A stretch of DNA of 29,888 nt, taken from IMG/VR virus record IMGVR_UViG_3300006737_000116, positions 1 to 29,888 of that record. One strand, 5' to 3'. Shown here piece by piece: positions 5,958-27,930 of this stretch. The notes beneath the pieces are model-generated. The model had not been told where the DNA came from, did no database searches, and worked only from the letters and a program-made list of their open reading frames with translations. Every line of letters starts with the position of its first letter. Position 1 is the first letter of the stretch. Origin of the DNA: a virus. The position numbers and the translations under genes are program-made.

Positions 5958-6156
5958 TGTGTTCTATCAATTGTTTTATTAGGGTCTTGAGTTCACTAAG
6001 TTCACTTTTAACATTATCCAATTCATATTCCATACTCCGTTGCTTGTTTCTGGATGCCTTATATTTGGCAAATGACGACCTATCGGTATTTATTATTGCA
6101 CCTGTATTTACATCACGATATAAATGGTCTTGGTCTTTAACCTTTAGGTTGTTCAT
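5935..6156 (-). CDS. small coiled-coil protein beside the fibre gene, unknown function
   Basis: 73 residues. Its ATG overlaps the TAA of the DUF4815 gene (TAATG), and its own stop lies 23 bp inside the tail-fibre gene, so all three are probably translated in a coupled series. The N-terminal half has a pattern LYRDVNTGAIINTD (17-30) that I associate with small hypothetical proteins in structural regions of T4-like cyanophages. The C-terminal half (about 42-66) is an amphipathic coiled coil with regular Leu/Ile spacing (VKSELSELKTLIKQLI). The position suggests a small structural or assembly factor for the fibre. Function is not known. Confidence 0.8.
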   Translation of the reverse strand: MNNLKVKDQDHLYRDVNTGAIINTDRSSFAKYKASRNKQRSMEYELDNVKSELSELKTLIKQLIEHNGTSHSK

Positions 6157-9100: not shown

Positions 9101-12100
9101 ATCTGATTGTCTTAACACCTGTACTAAATCTCAATTCATCAGCATCTGTATCATATGATACAGTGTCAACATTTCCAGTCCATACAGCATTTTCTCTAGG
9201 TGGAACACCAGCAGGAACAAGGATAACACCACTTGCATTACCATTATTATCTGTAGTGATAGAACCATTAAATGCTGACAGTGAGTTAGCAGCAATACCA
9301 GTATACTTAAGGTCAGGATTTACCCATCTAGCAATATCTCTGCCTTCCATAAAGACATAGACCTTTGTATTTGGTTTTAATCTATTAATTTTAAACTTAA
9401 CAGGGATACTTCTAGCAAAGTATGATAGTGATGTAACAACAACGTTGGATCCTACACCCTTAGTTACTAGTCCCTTACCAACTTCATTGTTCTGTGGACT
9501 AATATTAGAAGATGTTCCTACAGCAGCAGTAGCAACATTAGAATCTGCAATATTAGAATTAACTTCTGCAAATGATCCAATGTTATAGAATGCTTGGTTA
9601 GCACCTAACCAATTAACTTTATATGAATTATAAAGACTTGAGAATGCTTCCTTTAAATTTTCCTTAGCAAGGAATATAGAGTATAGATTAGTATTATTAT
9701 CTGTTACTAAAGGTTCTACACTATTGTCATACCAAGAATCTACACTAGGACCAATAAATGAATCACCAACATATTGAAGAACAACAAATGGGTTGGGATT
9801 AACTGTCTTAGTAGCAAAGTTATTTCCTAGTAATTCTAATTCTGTGTATGGAAGAGTAACTATATCACCAGTCTTCTGATAACCAGAAACAGATCTTTGA
9901 TCATCTCTATTATTAACTTCAATTAATTCGATAGAATCTTCTTTTGCTTGAGAACGTAATACAGACTGTTGTGTATCAATAGAACATTTATAGTCTATTG
10001 ATTTTAGGGATCCAATCCTATGAGTCTCAAAATTGTCTACAATGAAACCACTCTTAAAGCGATTGACACCAGCAGCATCTGTAATCTGCATATTAAGAGC
10101 TTGTTGCTCAAGAATACTTAACGTAGTGTAATATTCTAGTCTCTCAATACGTTTCTCCAACTTACCAATGTCACGCATTGTGTAACGACGGTTATCGACT
10201 GGAGTAATCCTTACATCCTTACCTGATTGTGTGAAAGCAGGTATGTACATATAGTACAATGCAATAGCATCACTAATAACATCTGGTTTAGATGGGTTGA
10301 GTGAAGAATTACCTTCCTTAACAATAAACTGACCTTTCTTATTCAAGAACAATCCATCAATCCTATCAAGGTATTGTGTCTGTGTGAATGAGAATGTATA
10401 TTCGAGATTTGAATCAGGAGCAGGAGTACTAGAAACAATACCACCAGTTCCAGTGAATGATCTACTATTAGGTGAAGATAGTAATGATGTATTCTGAAAT
10501 CCACCAATAATAGCATCGTTATCAACTTTAGGTCTAAAATCTAAAACATCTTTAAGAGATACCTTACCTAATACAGGTGAATTGAATGAAGGAATTTCTT
10601 CTGGTCCTACACCAGCTTCATGTAAGTATGAATCAACAGTAATGAAATCACCAGAAGTATGATCAAAGTAATCAAAAGCAACTACTAACTGTCCTACAGG
10701 TGCTTCAAAACCAGGTTTAATGACAAGTCTAGAGATATCATATATTGTGTCTCTTTGACCATCGTCAAATGTAAACCTATTAGTAACATCAGTACCAGTA
10801 ACCAAGTTACCTGACTTATCAACTACAGGAGGTGTTGAACTAGATCCTTCATAAACATATCTCAAGTTAAATGCATCTGCATAACTGAATACATCTAAAG
10901 ACTCTGTATCATAATCTCTACCTCTAAAAGGTACAATTTTGTCACCAGCAGACTCAACAATAATTCTCTTGTTTAAGTTTGCTGTCTTGAGTCTTGGTTT
11001 TGCTTTAGTAACTTCTAAAGTAGCAGTTAGTTTTAATGTAGGATATGTTGTATATGATGTAGATCCAAAATAATTTGAAGGTAGATTCAACTTAACACTA
11101 CCAGAAGTTAAACCACTAGCAGCATCAGTAGATGCCTTTATCTCAACCTGATCTGAAGTGATATAAACTACATCACCAGCAGCAACATCAGGAGCATCTC
11201 CTGCATCAAGTACTGTGATTAGGAAGTTGCTTTCACTAAATGATACAAATCTTTGAGTTCCAAATGGGAGTTGAGCAGCAAAAGTAATAGAACCAGCACC
11301 ACCAGAACCAGTAGATATAAAATCTCTCCTGAGATAGTAGGTAATCTTGGAATCATCAGAAGTAGCAACAATAGAACTTATTTGATTGGAACCAGTTTTA
11401 TAAAGAAGAGTTCCTTGATTAAAGTTATCAATAGATGGTCTTACTCTAACAACACTAGCATTAGTAACAGTATTAGGTAGTGACCTATCTAAGTAAATTC
11501 TTGATTTGTATACACCAGCAGGTTCTGTTGATTGTTGTACAACACCTCTTACAAGATTTCCAGTATCATCTGTAAACTGAACCAAATCTCCATGAATAAC
11601 AAATGTTGTTGCATCTCCACCAAATCCTGTACACTCAATATACTTTCTTCCTTTGTTTCCACTGAAAGTAAAATCAGTTACTGAAACAACCTCAGAATAC
11701 TTCTCTTTGTTAATCTCAATATCTGCTGTGAATATATTAGAATTACCAGATCCAAATTGAGAGTAGAATGACTTAACATTCTGTGGTGTGTATGTTGTAA
11801 CAGCATTTCTTACTAGAACTGGAACAACAACTGCTTGTGATGAAGCACCAGCATCAACAATCTCGACTAGAGGTGGTTGTGAGTATTCAACTCCAGCAGC
11901 ATCTCTGTCTATAATGCCTACACTATAAACTAACTGATCTCCACTGACATTAACAAGTATCTTAGAGTTATCATATTCAACTCCATCAATTCTAATTGTT
12001 GCTGTAGAAGAATGATTTGCTCCTCTATTAGTAACAACAAAATGAGATATAGTATTGTCTTTTGCAATCCTTAAAGTATTACCTGCTTCATCAGCAATAA

Positions 12101-14261
12101 CTTCACCACTCTTGAATACACCAAACAATCCTTTGATCATCAAGGTTTTATTTGAAGTATATGATCCTGTAGATGTTCCTTCTACTACACCATATGCACC
12201 ACTGCTAAGACCTCTAATATACTGTCCTGGAGTAAAACTACCAGAAACTAAAATCTTATCATCTAATTGTATCTTAGTAAAGAAGTTAGGATCAAAATAA
12301 GAAAATCCAAATGTACTATTATATGTTGCATCACCATTAGATAATCTACCTTTAGATATAATAATATCAGTATCAGAATTAAATCCAATTCCTCTATCTA
12401 ATAGAGTATAGTTACTTGGTTTTGCTAATCCAATAACAGGAGTAATTGTTTCATTGTAATCAATAATTTTTCCGAAAGGAACGGATCCAGGTGTTTCAGC
12501 ATCGTTCTCATTCATATAGATGAATCTAAACTTATTAGGATCAGTATCATCATACTCAATAAGAAAATCATCTAGAAGATCTTTCTGTGCAGTTACAGTA
12601 ATCTCTAGGAATGTAACTGTGTCATCTGGATTAGATTCAATTCTAGGAACTCTAGAATAAGATAGAACTTCAAAACTATTTGCTATGATAGTAGTTCCAC
12701 GTGATTGAATATACCAAAGAGTTGGAATCCCATCAGCACTAGTTCTAAAATTAGAACCAGTAAGACCTGCTACACGTGTTGCATAGTTGTTATCAACTTC
12801 AATGTAGATAGTCTTAATACCCTGATTAATATCAAAGAAAGAACCTCTCCTATTGATAGTCTGTTTAGGATCAGTTGCTGCCTCAGTATTATTCATACCA
12901 ATAGATCCGTCATTAAATGCAGCAGACAGATACACATTAGGATATGATGTAAGTTCAGATCCTTCTGAGTTTACTGGTAGTGAACTATAATTGTTAGTAA
13001 TTCTATAAGTAGGAAGACCTTTTGTTTTAAGACGTATATCTTCCCTGTTTAAAGTCTCTCTTGCTTTATCTACATCAATGTACTTAGTTTCTTTGTTAAC
13101 AACCTCGTAACCTTTAACATATGCTTTACCTGGACCAACACTAGCAACTAACTTCTTACCAGCATCAGATTCAGATAGACCATTTACTAGACCTTCTGTA
13201 TCCTTTCCATAGATACCAAGATTGCCATTCTTCTGATAGAACTCCCTTACATCAAGAGAGAAGTTGTCAACAACATAATCACCAGACTCATCATAAGTCC
13301 TACGTGCAAGAGTATTCTCAAGAAGGTTGTAGTCCGTTTGTACTACTTGAGTTTGTACTACTCCATTCTTGATCTGAAGTAGTTTAATGAAATTCTTATC
13401 TGTCTTCTCGTCTAATGAATATACAACGAGACTCAATATGAGACTTAACCTATGTGCTCCTGGTGCTGAGTAGTTCGAAGATCCAATAGAGTTGTCATAT
13501 AGACTTGCATCCTCTTCAGGAGTTACAACGTTCTCAACAATTTTAAATCCAACCTTAGCAGATGGTTGGTCATAGTACTTATCAACTACAAGTAATTGAT
13601 TTGCATTTCTTACGAAATATCCATTAACAAAGTAAATACCTTCTTCTACCTTGACAGCAGAAGCAAATCCCATTGCAGGACTCTCTAACGCCGTTGATAC
13701 ACCTGTGTCAGGATTAGTAACAGAAATACTAGTAGGAAGTACACTTCCATCGGTTCCAACCACCATCAGTGGTGTATTAACACCGTCTACGACCTCTAGG
13801 GTCTCACCTTGACGGAATGTGTTCTCGTTTCCAGCATCACCACTATTTGTATAGTTGACATAAAGAACATCTGCTTCTGTCTCTGTTGCAACTTCAGACT
13901 GTACTATAGTAGCAACAACACCAGAAGTTAATCCTTTAATTTGGCGATTTGTTAATTGTGTAACATCATATTTTTTATAAACTATCTGACCATTTTGGTT
14001 TGTAGGTATCTCAGATACTGAAGATAGTTTTACATAATTTAATTTATTATTAAATCCAATCTCACCAGGAATGACTAACTCACCCTGTTTAAAAGCATAC
14101 TTACCAAACTGCTCAACTTGATTTTGCAGTAAAGACTGAAGCTGCGTTAACTCCCTCGCCTGAATTGAATATCCAGGTCGAAAGAGTACTTTATAAAAGT
14201 TCTTGTCAGTGTCGAAATCGTCGTAATATGGTGCGACATTAAGATTCGTCTTTTGAGGCAT
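6156..14261 (-). CDS. giant DUF4815-type virion structural protein
   Basis: 2701 residues. The N-terminus (VAPYYDDFDTDKNFYKVLF, then RPGYSIQARELTQLQSLLQ, then a VIPGEIGFNN segment) matches the start of DUF4815 (PF16075) proteins of marine T4-like phages. The element YLDRIDGLFLNKKGQFIVKEG near 1294-1314, followed by a YYMYIPAF element, is typical of the end of that domain. A charged helix (DIGKLEKRIERLEYYTTL) follows at about 1354. The second half carries Gly-Tyr beta repeats (GSGYESAIITI, GSGYTEPPSIVL) also found in the gp7-like protein. It occupies the place of T4 gp9/gp10, so it is likely a baseplate-periphery or fibre-attachment protein; that is inference. The ATG at 14261 is 31 bp after gp8. 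Confidence 0.85.
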   Translation of the reverse strand: MPQKTNLNVAPYYDDFDTDKNFYKVLFRPGYSIQARELTQLQSLLQNQVEQFGKYAFKQGELVIPGEIGFNNKLNYVKLSSVSEIPTNQNGQIVYKKYDVTQLTNRQIKGLTSGVVATIVQSEVATETEADVLYVNYTNSGDAGNENTFRQGETLEVVDGVNTPLMVVGTDGSVLPTSISVTNPDTGVSTALESPAMGFASAVKVEEGIYFVNGYFVRNANQLLVVDKYYDQPSAKVGFKIVENVVTPEEDASLYDNSIGSSNYSAPGAHRLSLILSLVVYSLDEKTDKNFIKLLQIKNGVVQTQVVQTDYNLLENTLARRTYDESGDYVVDNFSLDVREFYQKNGNLGIYGKDTEGLVNGLSESDAGKKLVASVGPGKAYVKGYEVVNKETKYIDVDKARETLNREDIRLKTKGLPTYRITNNYSSLPVNSEGSELTSYPNVYLSAAFNDGSIGMNNTEAATDPKQTINRRGSFFDINQGIKTIYIEVDNNYATRVAGLTGSNFRTSADGIPTLWYIQSRGTTIIANSFEVLSYSRVPRIESNPDDTVTFLEITVTAQKDLLDDFLIEYDDTDPNKFRFIYMNENDAETPGSVPFGKIIDYNETITPVIGLAKPSNYTLLDRGIGFNSDTDIIISKGRLSNGDATYNSTFGFSYFDPNFFTKIQLDDKILVSGSFTPGQYIRGLSSGAYGVVEGTSTGSYTSNKTLMIKGLFGVFKSGEVIADEAGNTLRIAKDNTISHFVVTNRGANHSSTATIRIDGVEYDNSKILVNVSGDQLVYSVGIIDRDAAGVEYSQPPLVEIVDAGASSQAVVVPVLVRNAVTTYTPQNVKSFYSQFGSGNSNIFTADIEINKEKYSEVVSVTDFTFSGNKGRKYIECTGFGGDATTFVIHGDLVQFTDDTGNLVRGVVQQSTEPAGVYKSRIYLDRSLPNTVTNASVVRVRPSIDNFNQGTLLYKTGSNQISSIVATSDDSKITYYLRRDFISTGSGGAGSITFAAQLPFGTQRFVSFSESNFLITVLDAGDAPDVAAGDVVYITSDQVEIKASTDAASGLTSGSVKLNLPSNYFGSTSYTTYPTLKLTATLEVTKAKPRLKTANLNKRIIVESAGDKIVPFRGRDYDTESLDVFSYADAFNLRYVYEGSSSTPPVVDKSGNLVTGTDVTNRFTFDDGQRDTIYDISRLVIKPGFEAPVGQLVVAFDYFDHTSGDFITVDSYLHEAGVGPEEIPSFNSPVLGKVSLKDVLDFRPKVDNDAIIGGFQNTSLLSSPNSRSFTGTGGIVSSTPAPDSNLEYTFSFTQTQYLDRIDGLFLNKKGQFIVKEGNSSLNPSKPDVISDAIALYYMYIPAFTQSGKDVRITPVDNRRYTMRDIGKLEKRIERLEYYTTLSILEQQALNMQITDAAGVNRFKSGFIVDNFETHRIGSLKSIDYKCSIDTQQSVLRSQAKEDSIELIEVNNRDDQRSVSGYQKTGDIVTLPYTELELLGNNFATKTVNPNPFVVLQYVGDSFIGPSVDSWYDNSVEPLVTDNNTNLYSIFLAKENLKEAFSSLYNSYKVNWLGANQAFYNIGSFAEVNSNIADSNVATAAVGTSSNISPQNNEVGKGLVTKGVGSNVVVTSLSYFARSIPVKFKINRLKPNTKVYVFMEGRDIARWVNPDLKYTGIAANSLSAFNGSITTDNNGNASGVILVPAGVPPRENAVWTGNVDTVSYDTDADELRFSTGVKTIRFTSSSTDVDTKDVETFAEVKFYATGIVPENPSSIISTRPAFFKANEGTQIIDSNTENPVRPNPFAQTFKVDGFDGGVFTTSLDLFFNKKSENIPLRVYLTDVVSGKPGKNIIPGTQKVLTPETFLKVVSSDTLNITKGESITGSKSNASGPISKVIDKNNIEIVASTTGNYTLTNDQVYTIVLDNNNGKSFVQDELLTVASITQANNANNTQFTLTIAKDSGRVTSLNVSSIGSGYESAIITIESPQLPGGGNATATVRVSQGLVYDAEISLSGSGYTEPPSIVLRGTGSGNAGAVIESEITIDTPAVRMGIAIDVEGETQSITPTKFNFDFPVYLENDTEYALAIETDSIDYEMWASKLGDTEIATSQIVTTQPALGSLFKSQNINSWTEDLFEDIKFVLNRADFDISRTASLVLSNDNLGFEPLDHDPIETNAEANTTATSTLFKNNNYIVKVNHRDNGFDLNKSWVYFKNAVDVGGVTASSLNSNLYKVSNTGVDYYNITGTTRASGNSFGGGTSVLATYNRKFEKLYASISNLTFSQTKINSFVKTTNVSPIDDNVGTFTSYSQTDYEKTFLNEDFYFINQKIVASKINETANGINNSLLYKLDLSSTVSHLSPVIDLARASVKTISNRVESSSGSEERYGRRNQIVSFLPVYSFTASGLQGAEVINNNQTLVGVTSKAEGTIVKVDGSTVYVKVTTVNTFVAGETLTFSGQSFTGTITVGTTGLIKFAFDIPNTTTPPTFVTARNPSVVAQTYDNKISGRILLWNSKSGELTTVNDKQPINDDYNGRLIDNSSFDRNANVDDQLNDIFRVGDLISYPNQPVDEASFIEIAAVSYSDGIDFISETQSKNSSGIAKYVTKEISIENPATSIDVKLTANVTDTKNLQILYKLKKSSSQENFEDIEWIYFNTSGEPDVDTIASSENAISGITEKQSSYQELSYSIENLPEFSSYAVKIVMKSTNPAFVPKIQDMRAVASY

Positions 14262-16094: not shown

Positions 16095-16112
16095 TATTTA
16101 TATTTATTTATA
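16095..16112 (-). promoter_or_regulatory. double T4-type late promoter upstream of gp8
   Basis: The minus strand reads TATAAATAAATATAAATA, two exact copies of the T4 late-promoter box TATAAATA (16112-16105 and 16102-16095), 10 bp apart. The TAA stop of the gp7-like gene lies inside the upstream copy. With T4-like spacing, transcription would start near 16089-16099 and give a leader of roughly 35-45 nt before the gp8 ATG. The late promoter would be used with a phage sigma factor (gp55-type) and sliding clamp. Confidence 0.72.
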
Positions 16113-19100
16113 GGGCGTTTCTGATGTACTCTCCAATGAGATGCTCCTCGATAGGGGAGTTATCTATGCCTCTTTCACATCCTGTAAAACGATCACTCAA
16201 CTTTCCAGTGTAACTGATCTTTTCACGTCCAACAAAAATGGTTCCTGATGATGCAAAATTAGTCGTGTTTGCATATACAATAGCACCTGTTGCTAAATAT
16301 CCACCACCATTAGCATCTGGCAAATCTGATGTGTTCAACTGAGTTATATAGTAGTTGATGGATGGGTTAACAAAGTTCCACTTGATATTGCCTACGAAGT
16401 TTGTACCAACTGCATCGTTGATCTCTTCAATAGTGAAATTCCACACACTGATCTCTTCCAGCGTATACTCGGATACTGGAATACCACCTGTGGAAAGAAC
16501 ATCACCTAGATCTAATTGACCACCTACAGTGCTATAACTAACCCTGTTAAATGTCTGAGGAGTTGGTCCTAAAACTGCGGAACTATATGTGTTGTTGTAC
16601 GCAAAATGAGTATCAACAGCACCAGTTACGACATGTCTGACTAGTTGCTTCTTAAGATCTACATCAAGTGTAGCTACAGATCTAATAACTCTAGTCTTTT
16701 CAATTTCAATCTCTACAGATGATCCCATAGGAGCAGAAGTAACTGAAGTTGGCCACGTTCTAACTATTTCATGACTAACATTAAATCCACCAAGAGTACG
16801 AACCAATTGGAATGTGGAGACAATCTTTGGTTTATGCTCAACTGCTGGATAAGAACCACCACCAGGTTGAGCACCACTAGGACCACCAGGAACAATACCA
16901 CCAATAATTTCAATACCTTTAATAGGTACGATCTCAGATGATATATTTGTAGGACTATCGTTTAATAGTGCAGTTGAGAATATTAATCCAACAAAACTAT
17001 CAATCTTCCTATCACGTCTTTTAATTCTAGTATATTTTCTAGCAACACTAACTCTAGGTGCTTTAGTATAACCAGAACCAGATGATGTAAGTTTGATATC
17101 AACAATTTGACCCTTACTTACAATTACTTCAGCAGTTGCTCCACCTCCAGCACCATCTTCAGGAATAAAATGTAATATTGGTGGAGTATTATAACCATAA
17201 GCAGTAGTAGGTTCAATAACACCTGTATCATAATATAATTTGAGACTCTTCTTGTTCCAATCTACAGCAGTTACCTTACCACCCTCAATAGTACAAGTAA
17301 CACTTAAACCACTACCCGAAATATCACCATTATAATTTGTAGTTTTTATAGAACCAAAGTATTTGGAGGATACCTCAGAACCAGGTCTATAATCTTTAGG
17401 ATTTACAAATCTAGGTAATCCTTGTACATCTCTATATCCATCTTCACCATCAATCTTGATTACATCTCCTTCATTTAAATAAGAGAGTAAGTTCTTAGTT
17501 ACATAAAATGACTTATCTGCTTTGTCGCTATCATATAGCCATGGAGATGAATTCCTCTGCATTTTATGATTATTAGATTCATCTTTCTGATAATCAAGTG
17601 TACTAGGAACATTAACCTCAAGTTCGTCTTCACCTGTAGAGAAGTATAATGCTTCTGATCCATTGAATAAAGGATTGTTACCAGCAATAACTAATTTAAC
17701 TGATCTATCACTAAGAGTCTCAATAGACTTAATAGTGCCTACAACATTCTTAAGTAATCCATTCTTCTGATAAGCATACCTATTAAAATCATAGTTTGTA
17801 TTAACCCAACTGATTAATGGAACAAATGCATTAGGATTAGTATCTGTAATTGTTAATTCTAATCTATTAAAATATGTACCAGGTTGGAAATCATGTAAAG
17901 TTATTGACTGTTGTATATCTCTACCATACAATAACATAAGTTCTACATTGTTATCAGCATATATCTTTCTTGTAAATCTTATAGCAGGTCCAGTAATAGT
18001 ATATGAATCAGTTTCTCTCTGCAATACACCATCTATGAAAACTAGTACATAATCAGCATCATCAATCTTCTTGACTTCTTTAGTAATACTATCAAGAATA
18101 ATAAACGGACCAGCAGATCCATCAAATATACCAGAAGTCTCAAGTTCACATCTATTGTAGTTTCCTATACCATGAAGAGCAATATTATCTACTGCTAATG
18201 GTTCCTGAACAGTCTTAGTATTTTCTCCCTGCTGCCAAATAGGTGCTCCTGTAAATACAATCTTATTTGGTACAGTAGTTCTATCAATACTATAAGAAGA
18301 ATCATCTTGTACAACACCACCAATAGAAACCATAAGGTTCTCATTGATATCAGTCTCTACTTCTCCACCATCATCATAATATAGATCAAATATCTTATTC
18401 TCATTGTTAACGTAGTCAGGAAGAGATATTACGGCAGTTCCAGGACCAGTTATAATTGTTGACTTAAGGTTCTCATATAAAGCATCTAAAGCAGACTCTA
18501 CATCTGCACACTTAGGAGTGAAAGGACTACCTGTACGAATATTAAGGTTGATGTATGGATTTAACGTTGTAAACGTACCAGCAGTTAGTGTATTTCTCAT
18601 TGCCATTACAGCAAGATCTTTTGCTTTCTCAAATGCTTTGATAGTTGGTTCAATCTCACCTGTAATATAATCAAGTAAATCATTATTATAATATGACTCA
18701 CCAGCAAGAATAGATCTCTGGTTACCACCAAATCTTAAATCATGCTCATATGCATCTACTACTAAACCAATATCTCTATGACATGTTTGACCTAACGTAC
18801 CCCATGTAAGTTCTGGATACTCATTCTTGATAAAACCTAATGTCTCTGACTGAATAAATGCTCTATTCATAGACAACTGGTTAGCAGCATCAATCCATGT
18901 ACCAGATCTCTGGTGTATATTTCTTAATTTCTTGAGATACCTAGCATTTAATGCAGGAGTCTTAAATTCGAACCATCTACCATAAAACTTAACTCCAGGT
19001 ATTGCTTGACTATTCTTTGTACTTGCTCCGATTGGTGGGGAAGAGAATGTAATGTTATTACCATTAACAGCATATGCTGCACCAGGCTCTTGCATCACAC

Positions 19101-22100
19101 CATCAAGTGTAATAGTCAATGCTTGTGCATTATATGGTGAAACAGCATCACCATTCCCGTCTACAAGAACAAATGTAGTCTGTCCTTCAAGATTACCTTG
19201 ATTTGTAAATGCACCATTAAAAGGAGCATTGAGGTATACCTGCTTTGCTCTAATCTCTTCTGTAGAGAATGTATCACGTGATACAGAACCTAATCCCTGC
19301 TCAACATGTAATTGTTCTGTCTTGATAATAGAGGTACTGATTTGCTTCCTTGTACTAACAACAGTAATCTTATTCTTTTCAGGATCCCATAACTGAATCC
19401 TAGTAGAATGTACACTGGATGTACTAGGAGACATTCTTACATGTGCATCAGACTCAATAATAACTTCGCCAAATAACTGAAAACCAGCAGGGTGAGTGGT
19501 AGACTTAATTAAATCTCTCCAAACATCAATTGATGTCTTAGATTTAATAACATGAGAATAATCCTGATAGTAGTAAGTATCAGTAAGTTTCTGATTAGAT
19601 GAACTTACTATACCTTGATCATCACTATATGATCCAAGATTATCAAAGTAAGTTTTAATCTCTGGTGTAAACTCTGTATATGAAATACTATCAAGAGTCG
19701 CAGTATTTCCTCTAGCAAGACCCTTAATAGATAACTTCTCTCTAAAGAGACCAGTTACATCCTTAACAGATAAAATGTCAGATCCTTTTCTCCATGCTGT
19801 AACAGTTCCTCTAGCAGTATCTCCCTGAACTATAGTTTCACCAATCTTAAATGCATCATCATCAAAATTAGATAGTTTAAGTATATAATTTGATCTGATA
19901 GTGGAACTTAAAGTAGTATCGTTATGATAAGCACCACCATTGTTGATAATACGAATATTTCTAGGAACTCCTATATCAGTACTTGAAAGATATACCTTAA
20001 GATCAGTTTCTACAATCCTAACATCTGGAGCAACAGTGTAATTAGATCCAGCACTCTTGATAAGGATACCAGTAACGATACCTTTATCTGATACTACGTC
20101 TAATACAGCGTTTCCATCAACAAGTGCTTTTGGTTTGGAATAATTTGTTCCACCATCAACAACAGTTACACTATTAATAGCACCATCTAAGATGCTAGTG
20201 GTAGCAGTGGATTTCAAGGTTTCTGTTGGAAGAACACCAACCACTATTGGTAATTTCTTATACTCACTACCAATATTAATAATATTGATCTTGTCAATAG
20301 CACCAATAGAGAACTTAGACATAGATGTATATGTGACAGTTCCAGAACCGTCATGTGGTGCAGTTGTACCAGTGTCATATACAACAGAGTCACTTGTTAC
20401 ATACAATGCTCTCTTAGTACCTTGAAGAGGATCAGAGACAACATTTAAGAAACCTGTCTCAGGTGCTGCAACAGAATTCCTATCAAAATAATAATACTTA
20501 GAATACCTTAATGGTACTTTTGTACTATATGTGTTTGTAGCAACTCTAGGACCAAATCCCAACTTGAGATCAACATTGGTATTGGTATCAATCTTTTCAG
20601 GAGTGTTTATGTTATAATTGATACTAGGAGATATATCAAATTCCCTGTCCTGCATTGAGGAGTGAGATACATCAAAGTCGTATCTATAGAATTCCTTAAT
20701 GTTTAGTACGGGATTTCTCACAAAATTTATTTGATCTGTGGAAAACTCAAATACTTCAATTGGATTAGAGACTTGAACAACTCTAACAAGTCTTTTATCT
20801 TCACTTGTGTCATAGAACACAGTACCTAGACCAACAGCATTAACGTTCGATAATGTCGAGTTGTAATTCCATACAACTTGTGCTTTTTGAGTAACTGCAT
20901 CATAGGTTTGAATGAATGCATCATTAGCAAGGTTACCTATCTTATAACCTCTGTTTAATGTGTATCCAGGAACATACAGTGTGACAGTTGCCCCAGTAAA
21001 ATGGTCAACTGGCACACTCCCCCTCTTAACTGTGAGGACATTTCCACTTTTGTTTAATATATCTAATACCTCGTCACCTATCTGTATACGATCACCATCA
21101 GTAAACCCAATACTATTAACTACATTAACCTGAGTCTCACTGAGTCCTAGACCAATATGATCTACCTCTAATTGTAGTACAGGTGTACTAGCGTCTGTCT
21201 TAGATAAGTCAGCATCACCAACGGTGAGGACATCAAACTTGAGATATCCAGTACCCTTGTTCTTAATTGTAACATTTGTTACACTTCCAGAAGCATCTAC
21301 AACTAAGTCTGCTGTTGCATCACTTCCTGTTCCACCCTTAAGAGCAATATCAATATAACTACCAGATGTATAATCTTCACCACCATTCAATATAGTAGTT
21401 CTACCAATACCTGTATCATTAATAGTTGTAGTAGCTGCTGGTGACTGGAACGTGACTTCTTGATAGATTCTGCTTCTTACATACTGTGTTGTAGTTGTTT
21501 CAGTATCATCAGGGTTAATGTCTATATGAATATCATCTCCAATACCAACACCATGACTACTAGCAGTTTTAAGTATTGCAACGTGATCATTTATAGTAAA
21601 GATATTAAGACCAGAACTTAAAGAAGTAGTGCTAATCAATTTTGAACCAACACTATCAATTAAATTGCTACTTCTGATGAAGTAATCATCAGTAACAACA
21701 AAGTCACCACTTGTTACTTTAACTTTAACTGTATTCTTACTAGTAGTACTTTCTAGTACTTCTCCAACAGCAATAATACTAGCAACACCATCAGTATAAC
21801 TTAGGTTTGATCCTTTTGTATAAGATGAATTCTCATCTAATATTAGAGTTATTACTTGAGTGTTAGAAAATAGTTGATCTGTAGTTGTAAACACACCATT
21901 GACATTTCTCAATGCAAGTTGTTGACCACTAAACACATCACCTATCAACTCACCAGTTGCACCAGTGACTGATTGTGTTATAGTGTCTCCAGCAAATAGG
22001 TATGAGGTATTTGATAGATTAATTAATAATGCTTTAGTCTCTTGTGACTCAATAGATGATACTGTCTTACCTCTTACAGAAGAAACCTCAGCAGTAACAC

Positions 22101-24669
22101 CACGACCTTCAGTACCATTATTATCAATCTCTAATTGAGATCCAACTGAGAATGATGAGACGCTAGATACTGCGTTTGCACCAGATATAGTTCCTCTTGT
22201 GATTTCATCTACTATAAGAGTAGTTTTATCACCATTGTTCTCAATATCAGCAGTTCTTAATCTCTTAGATGATTTGGGTATATCGTTGTGACTTAGTGAT
22301 TGTACGTAGTTCGAATCTCTAGGAACTGCATAATAGTTTTCACCTATGATGTAAGGGAATACAGGTTCGTTAGATGAACTAACAGTTACGAAGTAGGCAT
22401 AGACACCATCAGGATACTCAGGTGTTAAACAGTAACGACCATTGTTGTGATCTAGTGTTCCTAACTTATGTGTATACTTGTAATCCTCAAAGAAAGTACC
22501 TAGTGAATACTCAGCCGTGGAAGGTCCAACCGATCTTCCTGGGTTCAATGAGTAACTGGATGTCATCTGTGTGATAGAACTAGATGCATCTAGTGGGTTG
22601 GTGTATCCATAAGCACCATATATGGGATTACCATCATAAGCATAGCCCAGAATAGGACTATGGTCCGAACCATCGTCACCACTACGCAAAGCAGTAGGTA
22701 CAGGATTTGTTTGAGTTAACTTATACCTATCCTTAGTCCATGAGAGAATACTCGCATCTGCTGTCGCTCCAGAACCAACTGGGATAATATCGACCCTAAC
22801 TTTACCAGAGGAATAACCACTACCAGCAGTTACTATGGTACACCCAGTTAATTGACCACTATTTGAGATCTCTGCTTTATATTCCGCAAACCTTCCCTTA
22901 CCAGCTAAGTCTAAAATTCTGATTACAGGTGGAGATGAATAATACTCACCTGGATTTGCTACAACCATACTGGTAATAGCACCATTTGTTATAACTGGAG
23001 TAACTATTGCATTCCTACCAGAAAGTATCTCTATGGTGGGTGTAACAGTGTACAGCAGTGGTGTATCAACAATAACTGATTCGACTACCTGACCTGCTAA
23101 CTTAGTCCTTGCAAGACCAGAATCGCCATTAATGAGAACATATGGTTCTTTAGCGTATCCGCTACCCCTTTGAGTAACAGTAACTTTCTGAATAGAACCA
23201 CCAAGTACAGTCTCAGGGTGTCTTGCACCCATAGCAAGACTACCATCAAGGAAAACACCAATGTCCTTATTGTTACTCTTATAGATCTCAGTGGTTAGAG
23301 TAGATTGTTTAGGAAGAATGCGTAACTGATTATTAGGCAACGCAATATAGTAATCATCACCATCATCAAAGATGGCAGATATATTAGATAGATCCCATCT
23401 AACATTATTAGAAGAATCGAATATCTTTACATCTGTATTAACAAAACCAGGATCTGATATCTCAAGTCTCTCTCCTACATTAGCATAAGGACTTGGGTTG
23501 GTAGGTGAAGCACTGTAGAATACACCTAGTATGAGTACAGAACCGTCACCTATACTAACGTTAGCAGCATCATATACCAAATCACCAATAGAATGTGAAG
23601 AAGCAGCAGATCTGGTCTTAATTGTAAACTGATCTATAGTCTTTTCTTCAAAAGTAAAGGTTTCGTTATTAATACTGAACTTTCCTTTATCACCCCACCC
23701 CATTGTGGAGAATACATCAACTACAGTACTTGCATTATCAATTTCCGCAGTTAGAGTGCTCTTCGATGCTAATGTAAACTTACCATTGACAGTTTCTTCC
23801 GCAAGTATCAATTCGTATAAATCAATACCATCATGCCTTTCACTAAAGAGGACATTATCTACTACCGCAGAAGCGTAGGCCCCATCTACGTTTTGGACGA
23901 TGCTTTTTCCTATAAATGATTCTGGAGTACCAGAAAGTATTTTTACCTTAAGAGAATAATTTTTTATCCAAGTAGACTCAGAAGATTTAAGAGTCTGCTC
24001 TCTAGGATACTTTACTTCTGGAGAAGGATCATCCTTAACCAGACATTTGAATAAAAACTTGATTGAATTGCTCGTTCCCTTAGATTTGTAAAAATCCGCA
24101 ATATTCTTGATCAATTTACGCTGATCAACACTCTCATTAAGGAAAGCAGTTGGAAAATCAGGTAGATACTGAGATTCAAAACTTTTTACTAATGCATAGA
24201 GAAAGAGATTACTAATATTGTATACTTTGACAGCAACAACGTGATCTGCTGCATTGGTAGTAACAAATGTAGACTCCTTATAGAGATCTCCCAGCTGAGT
24301 GTTACCTGAGACTCCTCTACTGACCTCTAAGAATTGTGTAGATGATTTAGACTTATAGAAACATATCTCATCACCAACCTGTAAGTAACCACTATCGGGA
24401 AAAGCACTGGTGTCCCCTACAGTTAGTGACGTATCCGTTGATTGAGCAAACTGGGTTAACTGTGTATACTGTTGCAGTATACTCTTATCATAGAAATCAA
24501 TATCACGGTATGTTGTGAGATGATTCGCAATGTCTAGGGGTTGACCCTGTAATTCTAATTGCTCATAGTACTTTTGTACGAACTTTCCAAACAGTTCATA
24601 CTCTTCGCTTATAAAAGAAGCGAGTTGATTCTCTATTAATAGTGAGGTCTTCCTAGCAGTCTTAGACAC
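16108..24669 (-). CDS. gp7: giant gp7-like baseplate wedge protein with YHYH domain
   Basis: 2853 residues, against 1032 in T4 gp7. Residues 182-210 (DQRKLIKNIADFYKSKGTSN, then SIKFLFK) resemble the T4 gp7 segment FYSTKGIEASYKFLFKVLYN. Near 1712-1735, WRDLIKSTTHPAGFQLFGEV resembles the later gp7 WKSDVIRFVHPVGFGFI. About 1500 residues of extra modules separate them, including a YHYH-type domain (LGYAYDGNPIYGAYGY near 671-686, then LDHNNGRYCLTPEYPDG near 735-751). About 1100 residues follow: three DGVxQ...Y.I...I.F fibre repeats (near 1846, 2110 and 2206) and a segment with DIGLVVDAYEHDLRFGGNQR near 1960. It would sit in the baseplate wedge. The start is GTG, overlapping the gp6 stop as TAGTG. 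The gp7 identity rests on remembered T4 sequence. Confidence 0.8.
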   Translation of the reverse strand: MSKTARKTSLLIENQLASFISEEYELFGKFVQKYYEQLELQGQPLDIANHLTTYRDIDFYDKSILQQYTQLTQFAQSTDTSLTVGDTSAFPDSGYLQVGDEICFYKSKSSTQFLEVSRGVSGNTQLGDLYKESTFVTTNAADHVVAVKVYNISNLFLYALVKSFESQYLPDFPTAFLNESVDQRKLIKNIADFYKSKGTSNSIKFLFKCLVKDDPSPEVKYPREQTLKSSESTWIKNYSLKVKILSGTPESFIGKSIVQNVDGAYASAVVDNVLFSERHDGIDLYELILAEETVNGKFTLASKSTLTAEIDNASTVVDVFSTMGWGDKGKFSINNETFTFEEKTIDQFTIKTRSAASSHSIGDLVYDAANVSIGDGSVLILGVFYSASPTNPSPYANVGERLEISDPGFVNTDVKIFDSSNNVRWDLSNISAIFDDGDDYYIALPNNQLRILPKQSTLTTEIYKSNNKDIGVFLDGSLAMGARHPETVLGGSIQKVTVTQRGSGYAKEPYVLINGDSGLARTKLAGQVVESVIVDTPLLYTVTPTIEILSGRNAIVTPVITNGAITSMVVANPGEYYSSPPVIRILDLAGKGRFAEYKAEISNSGQLTGCTIVTAGSGYSSGKVRVDIIPVGSGATADASILSWTKDRYKLTQTNPVPTALRSGDDGSDHSPILGYAYDGNPIYGAYGYTNPLDASSSITQMTSSYSLNPGRSVGPSTAEYSLGTFFEDYKYTHKLGTLDHNNGRYCLTPEYPDGVYAYFVTVSSSNEPVFPYIIGENYYAVPRDSNYVQSLSHNDIPKSSKRLRTADIENNGDKTTLIVDEITRGTISGANAVSSVSSFSVGSQLEIDNNGTEGRGVTAEVSSVRGKTVSSIESQETKALLINLSNTSYLFAGDTITQSVTGATGELIGDVFSGQQLALRNVNGVFTTTDQLFSNTQVITLILDENSSYTKGSNLSYTDGVASIIAVGEVLESTTSKNTVKVKVTSGDFVVTDDYFIRSSNLIDSVGSKLISTTSLSSGLNIFTINDHVAILKTASSHGVGIGDDIHIDINPDDTETTTTQYVRSRIYQEVTFQSPAATTTINDTGIGRTTILNGGEDYTSGSYIDIALKGGTGSDATADLVVDASGSVTNVTIKNKGTGYLKFDVLTVGDADLSKTDASTPVLQLEVDHIGLGLSETQVNVVNSIGFTDGDRIQIGDEVLDILNKSGNVLTVKRGSVPVDHFTGATVTLYVPGYTLNRGYKIGNLANDAFIQTYDAVTQKAQVVWNYNSTLSNVNAVGLGTVFYDTSEDKRLVRVVQVSNPIEVFEFSTDQINFVRNPVLNIKEFYRYDFDVSHSSMQDREFDISPSINYNINTPEKIDTNTNVDLKLGFGPRVATNTYSTKVPLRYSKYYYFDRNSVAAPETGFLNVVSDPLQGTKRALYVTSDSVVYDTGTTAPHDGSGTVTYTSMSKFSIGAIDKINIINIGSEYKKLPIVVGVLPTETLKSTATTSILDGAINSVTVVDGGTNYSKPKALVDGNAVLDVVSDKGIVTGILIKSAGSNYTVAPDVRIVETDLKVYLSSTDIGVPRNIRIINNGGAYHNDTTLSSTIRSNYILKLSNFDDDAFKIGETIVQGDTARGTVTAWRKGSDILSVKDVTGLFREKLSIKGLARGNTATLDSISYTEFTPEIKTYFDNLGSYSDDQGIVSSSNQKLTDTYYYQDYSHVIKSKTSIDVWRDLIKSTTHPAGFQLFGEVIIESDAHVRMSPSTSSVHSTRIQLWDPEKNKITVVSTRKQISTSIIKTEQLHVEQGLGSVSRDTFSTEEIRAKQVYLNAPFNGAFTNQGNLEGQTTFVLVDGNGDAVSPYNAQALTITLDGVMQEPGAAYAVNGNNITFSSPPIGASTKNSQAIPGVKFYGRWFEFKTPALNARYLKKLRNIHQRSGTWIDAANQLSMNRAFIQSETLGFIKNEYPELTWGTLGQTCHRDIGLVVDAYEHDLRFGGNQRSILAGESYYNNDLLDYITGEIEPTIKAFEKAKDLAVMAMRNTLTAGTFTTLNPYINLNIRTGSPFTPKCADVESALDALYENLKSTIITGPGTAVISLPDYVNNENKIFDLYYDDGGEVETDINENLMVSIGGVVQDDSSYSIDRTTVPNKIVFTGAPIWQQGENTKTVQEPLAVDNIALHGIGNYNRCELETSGIFDGSAGPFIILDSITKEVKKIDDADYVLVFIDGVLQRETDSYTITGPAIRFTRKIYADNNVELMLLYGRDIQQSITLHDFQPGTYFNRLELTITDTNPNAFVPLISWVNTNYDFNRYAYQKNGLLKNVVGTIKSIETLSDRSVKLVIAGNNPLFNGSEALYFSTGEDELEVNVPSTLDYQKDESNNHKMQRNSSPWLYDSDKADKSFYVTKNLLSYLNEGDVIKIDGEDGYRDVQGLPRFVNPKDYRPGSEVSSKYFGSIKTTNYNGDISGSGLSVTCTIEGGKVTAVDWNKKSLKLYYDTGVIEPTTAYGYNTPPILHFIPEDGAGGGATAEVIVSKGQIVDIKLTSSGSGYTKAPRVSVARKYTRIKRRDRKIDSFVGLIFSTALLNDSPTNISSEIVPIKGIEIIGGIVPGGPSGAQPGGGSYPAVEHKPKIVSTFQLVRTLGGFNVSHEIVRTWPTSVTSAPMGSSVEIEIEKTRVIRSVATLDVDLKKQLVRHVVTGAVDTHFAYNNTYSSAVLGPTPQTFNRVSYSTVGGQLDLGDVLSTGGIPVSEYTLEEISVWNFTIEEINDAVGTNFVGNIKWNFVNPSINYYITQLNTSDLPDANGGGYLATGAIVYANTTNFASSGTIFVGREKISYTGKLSDRFTGCERGIDNSPIEEHLIGEYIRNAL

Positions 24670-26474
24670 TATTCTTTAGTCGCTGTAAATTTGCTCTTTG
24701 CTACATCTACGTCAAGATATACTTCTCTAAGTACAGTGACATCATTCGATGCAGGTTTTACACGCAGTTCGATTCGATTATCAGAAAAACTTCCTTGAAT
24801 GAGGGTCAAGTCATACAACATGATCTCACCTTTAACATAATCAATATCACCCAAAGAGTCATTTAAGATAATTTTCTCGCCTGACACTGGATCTAGTCTA
24901 TATAGTATCATTTTTCCAGATCGATCCTCCAGATACGTGGTATAGTTTGGATATTCTAGTGTTATGAAACCAGTCGAAGAGACTACTGGATTATCACAGT
25001 CTGTGGCAAATGAATTTTGATAACAAATCTCATAGAATGTAGATGAGTTTAACTGTGCATAGAAATCTTTTCTGAGTGTGACTGAGGTTAGGTTAGATTT
25101 GATTGCTTTATCAGAATCGTCAATGACACTAATGAATTTTGAATATCTGAACTTGCCATTAAACTTCTCTGTCTGAGATGTCTTCAAATATTCTGTGATT
25201 CCCTTAGCAGCATTACCTGCTACTTGTTGCGGAAGTAATTCTGTCTTAGTTCCATCAAAGAAGATATTTGAAGTTAATTCAACATACAAAATAGATGGAT
25301 CCACTAGAACTGGTCTAATTGATCCAACAGAATACTTCTTCAGATCATTCACAATCTGATTCTTAGTATATGCAGAAAGGAATGACGCAGTACTAGGTTT
25401 AATCGCAATAAAGACCTTACCATAATCAGGTGGAACTTGTTCCTCACCACCAAACACAATAATATCACTAATTGCAGGATATACGTTACGTGCAATCACT
25501 TCATAGTCAGAACTAGTTACTGCTCTGTTCTGTGAAGAGAAAAACTTAGGTGCAAGATACTTAATCTTAGCAATACTCTCAATATCCTCACCACCATATG
25601 CTTTTTCCACAGTGGTGATACTAGTAACAGAGAAAGGTACTGTTAATGTGTCACTAGCATCCTCTAGAACGCCACCAAACGTGAATGTCTTAGCACCATT
25701 GACATCTTTGCCATGAGTGACCACATAGGACATCTGAATGACGTTTCCGTTCTCTAGTGCTTTTCCTAAAACACCATCACCAAACACAACTTCGTAGTTC
25801 TCATCTTCAACTTCACTCACAAAGTAAATTAATGAATCTTGACTAATCACAGGATCTAAAATATTATCTACTCTCTTCCACTCTGTAAACTCAGTCGCTG
25901 TTGGACTAGTATACACTCGTATCGTCAAAGTGTTGATATCAGCTCTACTATTTTCAATCTTAAACCTTTGTCCTTTTGTGGTTGTGGAAAACACCGTATT
26001 AGTTGTGACTAACGTACCTTCAACTAAATCAATATCTGTAAATGTTGCAACACCGTTTGCGACTTCTGCCTTAAAGTCTTTTGTTGCAACAAATTGATAT
26101 GATGTATCATCATAATTAGTCAAAAATCCTGTTCCTTCTTTTAAGAGAACATATTCAGGTGGATTATTTGGAATATTAACATTAAAGTTAACTTTTGCCT
26201 TCGAAGCAGTAATTGACTTTGGAGTATAACCCAATTGTTTCGCTAGAGACACCACATTGTCCCTGAGAGACGCAGAATCCAAGAACAGTTCATTCACTAC
26301 CATATTGGTATTGAACGCTGTGTAGTACGTATTATAAGCAAGTACGTCTAATAGTTGACTTAAGGTAGATCCTTCGAAGTCATAATCAGTAAAATCTGTT
26401 TCTGCTCTCAAGTACTCTGTGAGAGATGACTTTATATCTTTAAAGTCAAGGTTAGCTAGTTGTGTGTAAGGCAT
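24669..26474 (-). CDS. gp6: baseplate wedge protein gp6
   Basis: 601 residues, close to T4 gp6 (660). The N-terminal block (DYDFEGSTLSQLLDVLAYNT, then FNTNMVVNELFLDSASLRDN) and the central block (AYGGEDIESIAKIKYLAPKF, then QNRAVTSSDYEVIARNVYP, about 290-345) are the conserved segments of gp6/baseplate J-like proteins. GGEEQVPPDYGKVFIAIKP follows. gp6 dimers form the inner ring that joins neighbouring wedges around the hub and rearranges during sheath contraction. The ATG overlaps the gp25 stop (TAATG), and the TAG overlaps the GTG of the gp7-like gene. This arrangement should keep the three wedge proteins in proportion. Confidence 0.93.
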   Translation of the reverse strand: MPYTQLANLDFKDIKSSLTEYLRAETDFTDYDFEGSTLSQLLDVLAYNTYYTAFNTNMVVNELFLDSASLRDNVVSLAKQLGYTPKSITASKAKVNFNVNIPNNPPEYVLLKEGTGFLTNYDDTSYQFVATKDFKAEVANGVATFTDIDLVEGTLVTTNTVFSTTTKGQRFKIENSRADINTLTIRVYTSPTATEFTEWKRVDNILDPVISQDSLIYFVSEVEDENYEVVFGDGVLGKALENGNVIQMSYVVTHGKDVNGAKTFTFGGVLEDASDTLTVPFSVTSITTVEKAYGGEDIESIAKIKYLAPKFFSSQNRAVTSSDYEVIARNVYPAISDIIVFGGEEQVPPDYGKVFIAIKPSTASFLSAYTKNQIVNDLKKYSVGSIRPVLVDPSILYVELTSNIFFDGTKTELLPQQVAGNAAKGITEYLKTSQTEKFNGKFRYSKFISVIDDSDKAIKSNLTSVTLRKDFYAQLNSSTFYEICYQNSFATDCDNPVVSSTGFITLEYPNYTTYLEDRSGKMILYRLDPVSGEKIILNDSLGDIDYVKGEIMLYDLTLIQGSFSDNRIELRVKPASNDVTVLREVYLDVDVAKSKFTATKE

Positions 26475-26872
26475 TATCGTGTACGGCTCAAGAAGAAGTC
26501 TACTGTGACTGGTGGTTGTCTAAGACCAAGTATCTTATAAGTCATTTCAATATCAAACCCATCTTCCATTTGATTAGGTTCACAAAGTAATTCTGTAACG
26601 ACCACTCTCGGTTCATACCGTTCTATCGTTTCAAGAATAGAAGACTTCATCAGGTTTGCAGTAGCGTAGTCTAACGGTTCAAACAAAAAACGGCGAAGAC
26701 TGCTACCCAATTCGGGTTGAAACAGTCTTTCGCCTTTAGATGTTAATAATAGTGATGTTAAAGCTTGCTGGATGGCAGCACCGTCCTTCGTAACCACTAA
26801 ATCATCAGTTACGGGATGTTTTTTAAACGTAAGAGATAAATCCTTGAAGGATTGTGTAAACTTCGTAGCCAC
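26474..26872 (-). CDS. gp25: baseplate wedge protein gp25 (GPW/gp25 family)
   Basis: 132 residues, the same length as T4 gp25. The conserved core TSKGERLFQPELGSSLRRFL (44-63) and the family signature EPR (residues 87-89, in ERYEPRVVV) are present. gp25 sits at the inner end of the wedge, binds gp6 and provides the site where sheath polymerisation begins. The start is GTG at 26872 (GTG-GCT-ACG). A CTAAATAA late-promoter-like box lies 25 bp upstream. T4 has gene 25 elsewhere in the wedge/hub region, but placement directly before gene 6 is common in cyanophages. Confidence 0.95.
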   Translation of the reverse strand: MATKFTQSFKDLSLTFKKHPVTDDLVVTKDGAAIQQALTSLLLTSKGERLFQPELGSSLRRFLFEPLDYATANLMKSSILETIERYEPRVVVTELLCEPNQMEDGFDIEMTYKILGLRQPPVTVDFFLSRTR

Positions 26873-26896: not shown

Positions 26897-26904
26897 TTAT
26901 TTAG
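26897..26904 (-). promoter_or_regulatory. candidate late promoter for the gp25-gp6-gp7 operon
   Basis: The minus strand reads CTAAATAA, 25 bp upstream of the gp25 GTG and overlapping the stop of the SET gene. It resembles the CTAAATA/NATAAATA late box described for T4-like cyanophages and heads the three coupled wedge genes. One motif in AT-rich DNA is only moderate support. Confidence 0.5.
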
Positions 26905-27182
26905 ACGCTATAAAATGTATATTTCAAGAATAACTCTTCTCCCTTCTTAATTGGTTTGATAGTTTTCATATGATAGATATCACCCTCACGCCATTTTATA
27001 CAGTTAGGATCTCCACTATGATTTACGAACCCTCCTAAAGGAGTTCGAATAATATCATCATATACTAAAACATGAGAGACACCAAGATACATCATAGCAT
27101 CTATATCCTGTGTTGCGAAAAGACCTTGCCCTGCGACAGGACTCTCTTTAACTTTTAGAAAGTTTGGTAATGCTTGATACAT
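26901..27182 (-). CDS. compact SET-domain protein (putative lysine methyltransferase)
   Basis: 93 residues with the SET-domain hallmarks in order. AGQGLFATQDI (17-27) is the SAM-binding GxGLFA strand. GGFVNHSGDPNC (50-61) is the NHSxxPN pseudoknot motif. GEELFLKYTFY (81-91) is the GEELxxxY element, with Y88 as the likely catalytic or substrate-channel tyrosine. SET proteins transfer methyl groups from SAM to lysine; bacterial and viral ones act on host or phage proteins. At 93 residues it is shorter than the usual ~130: the middle SET-I part is nearly absent and there is no post-SET region. It lies between the PAAR/small-gene group and gp25, unusual for a baseplate operon. The target is unknown; a virion or host protein is possible. 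Confidence 0.85.
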   Translation of the reverse strand: MYQALPNFLKVKESPVAGQGLFATQDIDAMMYLGVSHVLVYDDIIRTPLGGFVNHSGDPNCIKWREGDIYHMKTIKPIKKGEELFLKYTFYSV

Positions 27183-27220
27183 TTTAAATAATCATGTCGG
27201 AGATTTCGGCGTTCGCCTCC

Positions 27221-27370
27221 TCAGAACTGCTTCGGATGAGTTATCACGTCACCGTGAATCTCACCGATATCATCGATATGGGCATGATCAATCTTTTCAA
27301 TATGAAGATGCTCTAATGCATTCGCAATTCTTTCTAGAGAATCAGCAATGCGACTGAAGTCTTCACTCAT
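27221..27370 (-). CDS. small acidic/His-rich helical protein, unknown
   Basis: 49 residues from an ATG at 27370 that overlaps the stop of the 45-residue gene (ATGA). The first half (SRIADSLERIANALEHLHIE) is an amphipathic helix. The second half is rich in His and Asp/Ile (HAHIDDIGEIHGDV). No family is recognised. The tight coupling and sensible helix periodicity support a real gene. A GGAGG sequence straddles its 3' end, 38 bp before the SET gene start. Confidence 0.6.
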   Translation of the reverse strand: MSEDFSRIADSLERIANALEHLHIEKIDHAHIDDIGEIHGDVITHPKQF

Positions 27371-27504
27371 CGACCTTGCCCCCTGCTACGCTTCCTCGCA
27401 CCATTACGAGAAGTTGCAGAATACTTTGTATGCTTTCCATCACCCTGACGAGTCTTCTTAGGTCTCGCAGAGATCTTATCATTTGTACTGTTGTATAGTG
27501 CCAT
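27367..27504 (-). CDS. small basic protein, unknown
   Basis: 45 residues beginning MALYNSTNDKISARPKKTRQ and ending RNGARKRSRGQGR. More than a quarter are Lys/Arg, and Gly/Ser/Thr are frequent. The composition suggests a disordered nucleic-acid-binding or virion-packaged peptide, but no family domain is seen. Similar short proteins starting MALYNSTNDKI are, as far as I recall, common in T4-like cyanophages. It is the first gene after a sigma70-like promoter, and its TGA overlaps the ATG of the 49-residue gene. Confidence 0.7.
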   Translation of the reverse strand: MALYNSTNDKISARPKKTRQGDGKHTKYSATSRNGARKRSRGQGR

Positions 27505-27524: not shown

Positions 27525-27553
27525 ATTATATCACAAAACTCGCTAACCGACAA
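27525..27553 (-). promoter_or_regulatory. sigma70-like promoter before the 45-residue gene
   Basis: The minus strand has TTGTCG (27553-27548), a 17-bp spacer, and a perfect TATAAT (27530-27525). The -35 lies in the last codons of the PAAR gene. The start would fall near 27518, with a ~14-nt leader before the ATG at 27504. It would let the host polymerase transcribe the small genes and SET gene apart from the late structural transcript. Confidence 0.6.
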
Positions 27554-27839
27554 CCACACTCGCATCGCCAGAAGAAATACTCCCTGCACATGCTGAATCA
27601 CCTTCACGGGCAAGACTCTTACCACCTGCCTTCACAGTTGAGGATCCTGCGTTAACAGCAGTGGTGTGTGGTACGCACTTCTCGCCAACCAAGATAGTAT
27701 GTGTTGTCAGGGCAGATCCATCAGTCGCTGCTGCTTTACCGCCTATAATCACAGTCTCTTCTCCAGATGCGATAGTAGTTACACTATCACAACCATGACC
27801 AGTATTCACTGAATCTCCTTTACGTGCTGCGTTCGGCAT
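27543..27839 (-). CDS. PAAR-repeat spike tip protein (gp5.4-like)
   Basis: 98 residues, close to T4 gp5.4 (97). PAAR features are RKGDS (6-10), repeated Gly-rich turns such as VIIGGKAAATDG and VKAGGKSLAREGDS, and metal-ligand candidates H15, C17, H47, C55, H58 and C84. PAAR proteins fold into a small metal-bound cone that caps the gp5 central spike and helps pierce the outer membrane. Three ATGs occur in a row (27845, 27842, 27839). The upstream GGAG is spaced 1, 4 and 7 nt from them, so the third is preferred; starting at 27845 would only add two Met. Confidence 0.9.
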   Translation of the reverse strand: MPNAARKGDSVNTGHGCDSVTTIASGEETVIIGGKAAATDGSALTTHTILVGEKCVPHTTAVNAGSSTVKAGGKSLAREGDSACAGSISSGDASVVVG

Positions 27840-27930
27840 CATCATTCTCCAATGCTATCTGTATACTATCGACAAACTTACCCATAGAAAGATGTAAAGT
27901 GTTTATCGATATAATGTCATGAATCATCAT
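27820..27930 (-). CDS. 36-residue micro-ORF overlapping the PAAR gene start
   Basis: An ATG at 27930 opens a 36-residue frame (MMIHDIISINTLHLSMGKFV, then DSIQIALENDDAERST) ending at a TAA inside the PAAR gene. A purine-rich GAGAG lies 4-8 bp upstream. The peptide is balanced and amphipathic rather than random, and it fills an otherwise empty 100-bp gap in a densely packed region. The PAAR Shine-Dalgarno lies inside it, so its translation could also open or block PAAR initiation. No family is recognised. Confidence 0.5.
   Translation of the reverse strand: MMIHDIISINTLHLSMGKFVDSIQIALENDDAERST
27847..27850 (-). promoter_or_regulatory. Shine-Dalgarno GGAG deciding the PAAR start
   Basis: GGAG on the minus strand is followed by A and three consecutive ATG codons. 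The 7-nt spacing to the third ATG (27839) is the most favourable. It is one of the few clear Shine-Dalgarno sequences in the window. Confidence 0.65.

Follow-up and report, generated by a model that had tools for sequence, protein, structure and literature searches.

The window, by which we mean the whole stretch of 29,888 nucleotides of viral DNA analysed here (IMG/VR record IMGVR_UViG_3300006737_000116), encodes on its minus strand a real, conserved and compact SET protein, which is widespread and functionally unnamed, its fold family being already known. The gene probably specifies a compact SET-fold, SAM-dependent protein-lysine methyltransferase that marine T4-like phages, along with some other marine phages, carry as accessory cargo (moron/AMG-type) open to exchange. 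This reading as a cargo enzyme is based on the SET sequence, the predicted fold, invariant residues, purifying selection, the clade to which the protein belongs, and the repeated occupancy of one genomic slot together with other loci. The methyltransferase activity is predicted, and a lysine of a virion or host protein may reasonably be taken as its target.

The SET protein, its conservation and predicted fold

The open reading frame starts with ATG, codes for 93 amino acids and has the exact bounds given below, together with the codons of its main motifs.

26901–27182, minus strand: compact SET-domain protein, phrog_28741 (open reading frame, Pfam, PHROG, predicted fold, conservation)
27123–27131, minus strand: GxG codons G18-Q19-G20, which in characterised SET enzymes lie on the SAM side (among 89 relatives, one variant at G18 and none at G20)
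27018–27023, minus strand: codons of N54-H55, the NHS motif (invariant in 89 relatives)
26919–26921, minus strand: codon of Y88, the expected catalytic tyrosine (invariant in 89 relatives; aligned with Y105 of the viral protein vSET)

The protein matched the Pfam SET family (PF00856, 4.5e-11) with 43.6 bits, above the curated cut-off of 22.4 bits, and PHROG 28741, a family with no functional name (7.5e-49). This was the single SET match in the 29,888-base record, and one of 14 control genomes had such a match. NCBIfam had no relevant model for the protein, the weak AnkI/LegAS4 match lying far under its cut-off. An identical copy of the gene exists in another contig (L002). The original prediction of a 93-residue SET protein that keeps the SAM-side and NHS motifs is borne out, as these were found intact: G18-Q-G20, Y32-L-G34, the NHSxxPN block (N54, H55, P59, N60) and GEELxxxY88. 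A T4-type late promoter (TATAAATA) was sought before the gene and none was found nearby. Directly upstream of the start, at 27199–27220 on the minus strand, a possible hairpin (GGAGGCGAACGCCGAAATCTCC) was spotted by eye.

In an alignment of 89 sequences, comprising 67 viral and 22 bacterial-genome representatives, no variation occurred in G20, G34, H37, R46, T47, G50, F52, N54, H55, N60, E83 and Y88, and Y2 and G18 had one variant each. Free variation of N54, H55 and Y88 among homologues had been named as what would speak against the original prediction; all three residues are invariant. Between the window gene and its close relatives, dN was 0.11–0.28 and dS 0.6–2.7, giving dN/dS values of 0.05–0.23 for the pairs with measurable dS. 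Other pairs of relatives mostly agreed with low dN/dS, with outliers at a dS of about 0.03 (L041/L043, 0.5; L069/L077, 3.5). The values of 0.05–0.23 indicate that the gene is under purifying selection and thus constrained, rather than a chance open reading frame.

Structure prediction had been proposed as a further check, with a fold devoid of a SAM pocket as the other feature that would speak against the prediction. The AlphaFold2 model (input alignment of 39 sequences from the window and viral contigs) has the SET (beta-clip) fold and superposes on SAM-binding SET enzymes. Its mean pLDDT was 92.2 and its pTM 0.81, with pLDDT values below 50 in the last four residues only. Foldseek searches against the PDB returned vSET of Chlorella virus PBCV-1 first (3kma, 1.5e-6), then MLL1, ASH1L and further SET enzymes. 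With VIA-align, the model matched vSET with a Z of 11.9 (rmsd 1.9 over 85 residues, 29% identity), MLL1 with 11.8 and SAM-bound SMYD2 (3tg4) with 10.9; Z ranged from 10.6 to 11.9 across 50 solved SET-domain entries and exceeded 10 for many SAM- or SAH-bound SET enzymes. Judging from the roles of the conserved positions in characterised SET enzymes, the protein would be expected to bind SAM.

Like the phage protein, vSET is a small stand-alone viral SET protein, and the two share the GxG, NHSxxPN and catalytic tyrosine positions. The segment from GxG to N, however, spans 52 residues in vSET and 34 in the phage protein, as read off the pairwise alignment (G20 and N54 of the window protein align with residues 17 and 69 of vSET). 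vSET methylates H3K27 on histones of its eukaryotic host (PMC3089700), whereas the known hosts of phages carrying relatives of the window gene are bacteria and its sequence clade is bacterial.

Kinship with marine bacteria and spread among phages

The spacing from GxG to N is 34 residues in the window protein and 34–45 across 85 proteins of a compact clade, compared with 57–69 in nine classic SET proteins from bacteria and archaea. Within this clade 3–18 residues follow the catalytic tyrosine. With its spacing of 34, the window protein has no SET-I insert in the stretch from motif II to NHS, and its chain ends five residues past Y88, with no post-SET cysteine cluster. A signature of LGxxH and RTPLGGF.NHS is near-universal in compact members. 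In a maximum-likelihood tree, which rests on about 100 columns and resolves deep branches poorly, the compact clade was split from the classic SET proteins with a support of 99/87.

Inside the clade, phage sequences interleave with proteins of Pelagibacteraceae, Flavobacteriaceae, Porticoccaceae, SAR86 and others. The chromosomal members from these four groups (L089, L099, L111 and L112, respectively) belong to the same length class, carry LGxxH and RTPLGGFINHS and likewise lack SET-I and post-SET; the Pelagibacteraceae protein is 60% identical to that of the window. Their neighbours are non-phage genes, namely ccmF and a redoxin gene in Pelagibacteraceae, semialdehyde dehydrogenase and pyrroline-5-carboxylate reductase in Flavobacteriaceae, ketoacyl synthase in Porticoccaceae and carboxyltransferase in SAR86. 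Close homologues are spread patchily among cells, being present in 1 of 53 Pelagibacteraceae genomes, about 10 of 199 Flavobacteriaceae and about 8 of 112 Porticoccaceae; the remaining matches in the 53 Pelagibacteraceae genomes are longer SET proteins with weak scores.

The gene is not of the eukaryotic type, its compact clade also including proteins from chromosomes of marine bacteria. Its nearest cellular relatives are marine bacteria, so its kinship is bacterial, not eukaryotic. A eukaryotic donor therefore found no support, within the limits of a tree of about 100 columns with poorly resolved deep branches. The phylogeny that had been suggested for finding the donor lineage gives bacterial kinship, and transfer may have run in either direction. 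An origin from cyanobacterial hosts found no support either: 1 of the 201 genomes in the Synechococcaceae set matched, and the matching contig (L093) may be viral. In the published view, bacterial SET genes have a separate history (PMC3980110), with which the bacterial kinship found here agrees.

Rarity of such genes in phage structural clusters, also part of the original prediction, is contradicted by an alignment-based scan that located relatives on at least 574 viral contigs. Of annotated phage records, only nine encode one, including the Prochlorococcus phages P-SSM7 and P-RSM6, the single-cell virus AG-345-P14 and the Pelagibacter siphovirus Kolga. One of these records takes its label for the protein from the PBCV-1 structure; the others give no functional name. 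PSSM7_204 of P-SSM7 (T4-GC 716, 78% identity to the window protein) and CPXG_00131 of P-RSM6 (64%) both belong to phrog_28741 and are annotated as “hypothetical protein”. In two podoviruses, a SET-like domain forms the C-terminal part of a protein of 253–291 amino acids. These proteins, at 5527–6285 of a Caudoviricetes record (L086) and at 5431–6303 of Rhodoferax phage P26218 (L087), lie in the structural/packaging region, and their N-terminal part was assigned to no family. Our literature search found no report of SET in cyanophages or as a marine-phage AMG, subscription journals being mostly outside its reach.

The slot before gp25 and other loci

The original prediction placed the gene between PAAR-side small genes and gp25, which agrees with the annotation of the window:

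27543–27845, minus strand: PAAR-motif protein (Pfam PAAR_motif, 6.8e-11)
27367–27504, minus strand: lysine/arginine-rich open reading frame of 45 amino acids, phrog_516, no functional name; possible candidate substrate
27221–27370, minus strand: small open reading frame of 49 amino acids directly upstream of the SET gene, phrog_35332, no functional name
26474–26872, minus strand: gp25 baseplate wedge subunit, the next gene downstream of the SET gene (Pfam GPW_gp25, 3.3e-14; phrog_261)
24669–26474, minus strand: gp6 baseplate wedge subunit (Pfam, PHROG)

Downstream of gp6 the window holds two giant open reading frames, at 16108–24669 (minus strand, 2853 amino acids, phrog_4406, virion structural/baseplate wedge-like) and at 6156–14261 (minus strand, 2701 amino acids, phrog_358, no functional name). 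In Cyanophage P-RSM6 (L083, record positions 103907–129628), gp6 is followed by one annotated CDS of about 25.7 kb, an exceptional length for a phage gene.

Among 147 distinct viral contigs, gp25 lies just downstream of the SET gene in 96 (at a distance of 31–157 nt in 85 of them), the order nrdB-SET-talC known from P-SSM7 occurs in 11, and 40 have other settings. The latter include clusters with 2OG-Fe(II) oxygenase and radical-SAM genes (L008, L204), UDP-glucose dehydrogenase (L200), a glycosyltransferase (L074) and a nearby primase-type gene (L198). Contig L007, in which the SET gene follows a 607-aa phrog_773 “major head protein”, was not counted in favour of a capsid target; that protein has no capsid domain according to Pfam, and psbA-region genes surround it. 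In the tree, the sister of the window sequence is L008 from a 2OG/radical-SAM setting, followed by the gp25-linked L003 and the nrdB-linked L009. With such near relatives in different loci, the gene relocates while scarcely changing.

The slot itself is also variable. In 73 close relatives by gp6 with enough upstream DNA, the SET gene precedes gp25 in 45 and is absent in 28, where the slot is taken by 2OG-Fe(II) oxygenases (11 by tblastn), a phrog_3704 “ferredoxin” gene or small open reading frames. In Synechococcus phage ACG-2014h, the slot holds a 2OG oxygenase (phrog_81; T4-GC 104) and PurM. The oxygenase is, like SET, a small modifying-enzyme type of gene in the same slot, although fold and chemistry are unrelated. 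A 2OG gene was near in only 3 of the 62 SET-gp25 loci with 2.5 kb of upstream sequence; the loci are related and these counts are not independent. The window, too, encodes a 2OG-Fe(II) oxygenase of this slot-filling family (phrog_81) at 419–1027 on the minus strand, after a tail-fibre gene.

A gene hot spot between gp46 and gp25 has been described in cyanophages (Sullivan et al., PMC3037559). An obligate T4-type baseplate gene would always accompany gp25 and gp6 at a fixed locus; the SET gene is missing before gp25 in 28 of the 73 relatives and lies between nrdB and talC in P-SSM7. It rather behaves as hot-spot cargo, being sporadic, present in a known insertion slot and replaced in relatives. 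Because genes are known to be exchanged just upstream of gp25, adjacency to gp25 says little about baseplate function: the placement is that of a hot spot and is not evidence for baseplate methylation. The label “baseplate operon” therefore misleads; the adjacency to gp25 stands, whereas a role in the baseplate is weakened by the hot spot, the alternative cargo and the loci far from baseplate genes.

Possible function, alternatives and implications

As a cargo enzyme, the protein would bind SAM in the SET pocket and, during infection, methylate a lysine on some target protein. Modifying this target would help infection, and it would not specifically be a baseplate protein, since the same gene occurs at loci without baseplate genes and in a siphovirus. 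As SET-I and post-SET are both absent, it would fall to the conserved N-terminus (Y2, P6) and the LGxxH/RTPLGGF segment to select the substrate. The mobility of the gene and its occurrence in a siphovirus suit a host or general target; the linkage to gp25 and the podovirus fusions suit a target in the virion. Some observations sit less easily with the cargo enzyme. In many SET enzymes, SET-I contributes a part of the lysine channel for which no counterpart is obvious here, so that activity could be altered or dependent on a partner. The main clade also shows strong conservation of the position before gp25, as need not be the case for purely random cargo.

That conserved position is one reason to consider a dedicated virion enzyme, which would methylate baseplate, tail or capsid lysines of its own phage and so tune assembly or adsorption. 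The order SET-gp25-gp6 is kept in 96 of the 147 contigs, mostly at short distance, the SET-like domains of the two podoviruses belong to structural/packaging-region proteins, and free virions of Cellulophaga phages from the sea were found to contain methylated structural proteins (PMC13288928). We nevertheless regard this as unlikely, as the slot, a published hot spot (PMC3037559), holds unrelated cargo in SET-less relatives with similar gp25 and gp6, an about 80% identical gene lies in the nrdB-talC interval or next to 2OG/radical-SAM genes, and the sole SET copy of P-SSM7 is away from gp25. It is also very doubtful that the protein has kept the fold and a SAM/SAH-binding or protein-binding role without methyl transfer. 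Classic enzymes have their lysine channel shaped by SET-I and post-SET, whose absence here would agree with such a loss, but the catalytic tyrosine and the NH pair never vary across 89 diverse sequences, as expected of an active enzyme.

SET enzymes often target basic, lysine-rich tails, and the neighbouring phrog_516 peptide, with the pattern PKK(T/S)RQG...TKxSATSRN...KKRYRGQG, has a histone-tail-like composition. Its gene lies within 50 nt of the SET gene in 34 of 105 loci, and methylation of the peptide might modulate its DNA-, RNA- or virion-binding role. This appears highly improbable, because phrog_516 is found upstream of gp25 in a wide range of marine T4-like phages and mostly occurs without SET (449 phage records, nearly all SET-less; 17 of 17 SET-less relatives tested), and at SET loci away from gp25 it is near in only 1 of 45. 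We consider the peptide an easy candidate for in-vitro assays rather than the likely substrate. More broadly, it would be a long shot that in infected cells the protein marks lysines of phrog_516 or of a host protein involved in translation or takeover, as a bacterial-virus counterpart of chromatin methyl-marking; if it does, many uncultured marine T4-like phages would carry chromatin-like methyl writing.

A proteomic study from 2026 detected methylated host proteins (e.g., EF-Tu) and virion proteins in phage-infected marine Cellulophaga, whose phages are not known to encode a methyltransferase (PMC13288928), which makes the modification itself plausible in such systems. With 93 residues, the window protein is a very small natural SET protein for structure-function work. 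The compact SET family, with its at least 574 viral contigs, offers a concrete phage-encoded candidate writer of protein methylation. Since its cultured carriers include two Prochlorococcus phages (P-SSM7, P-RSM6) and one Pelagibacter phage (Kolga), whether phages themselves write protein methylation becomes directly testable.
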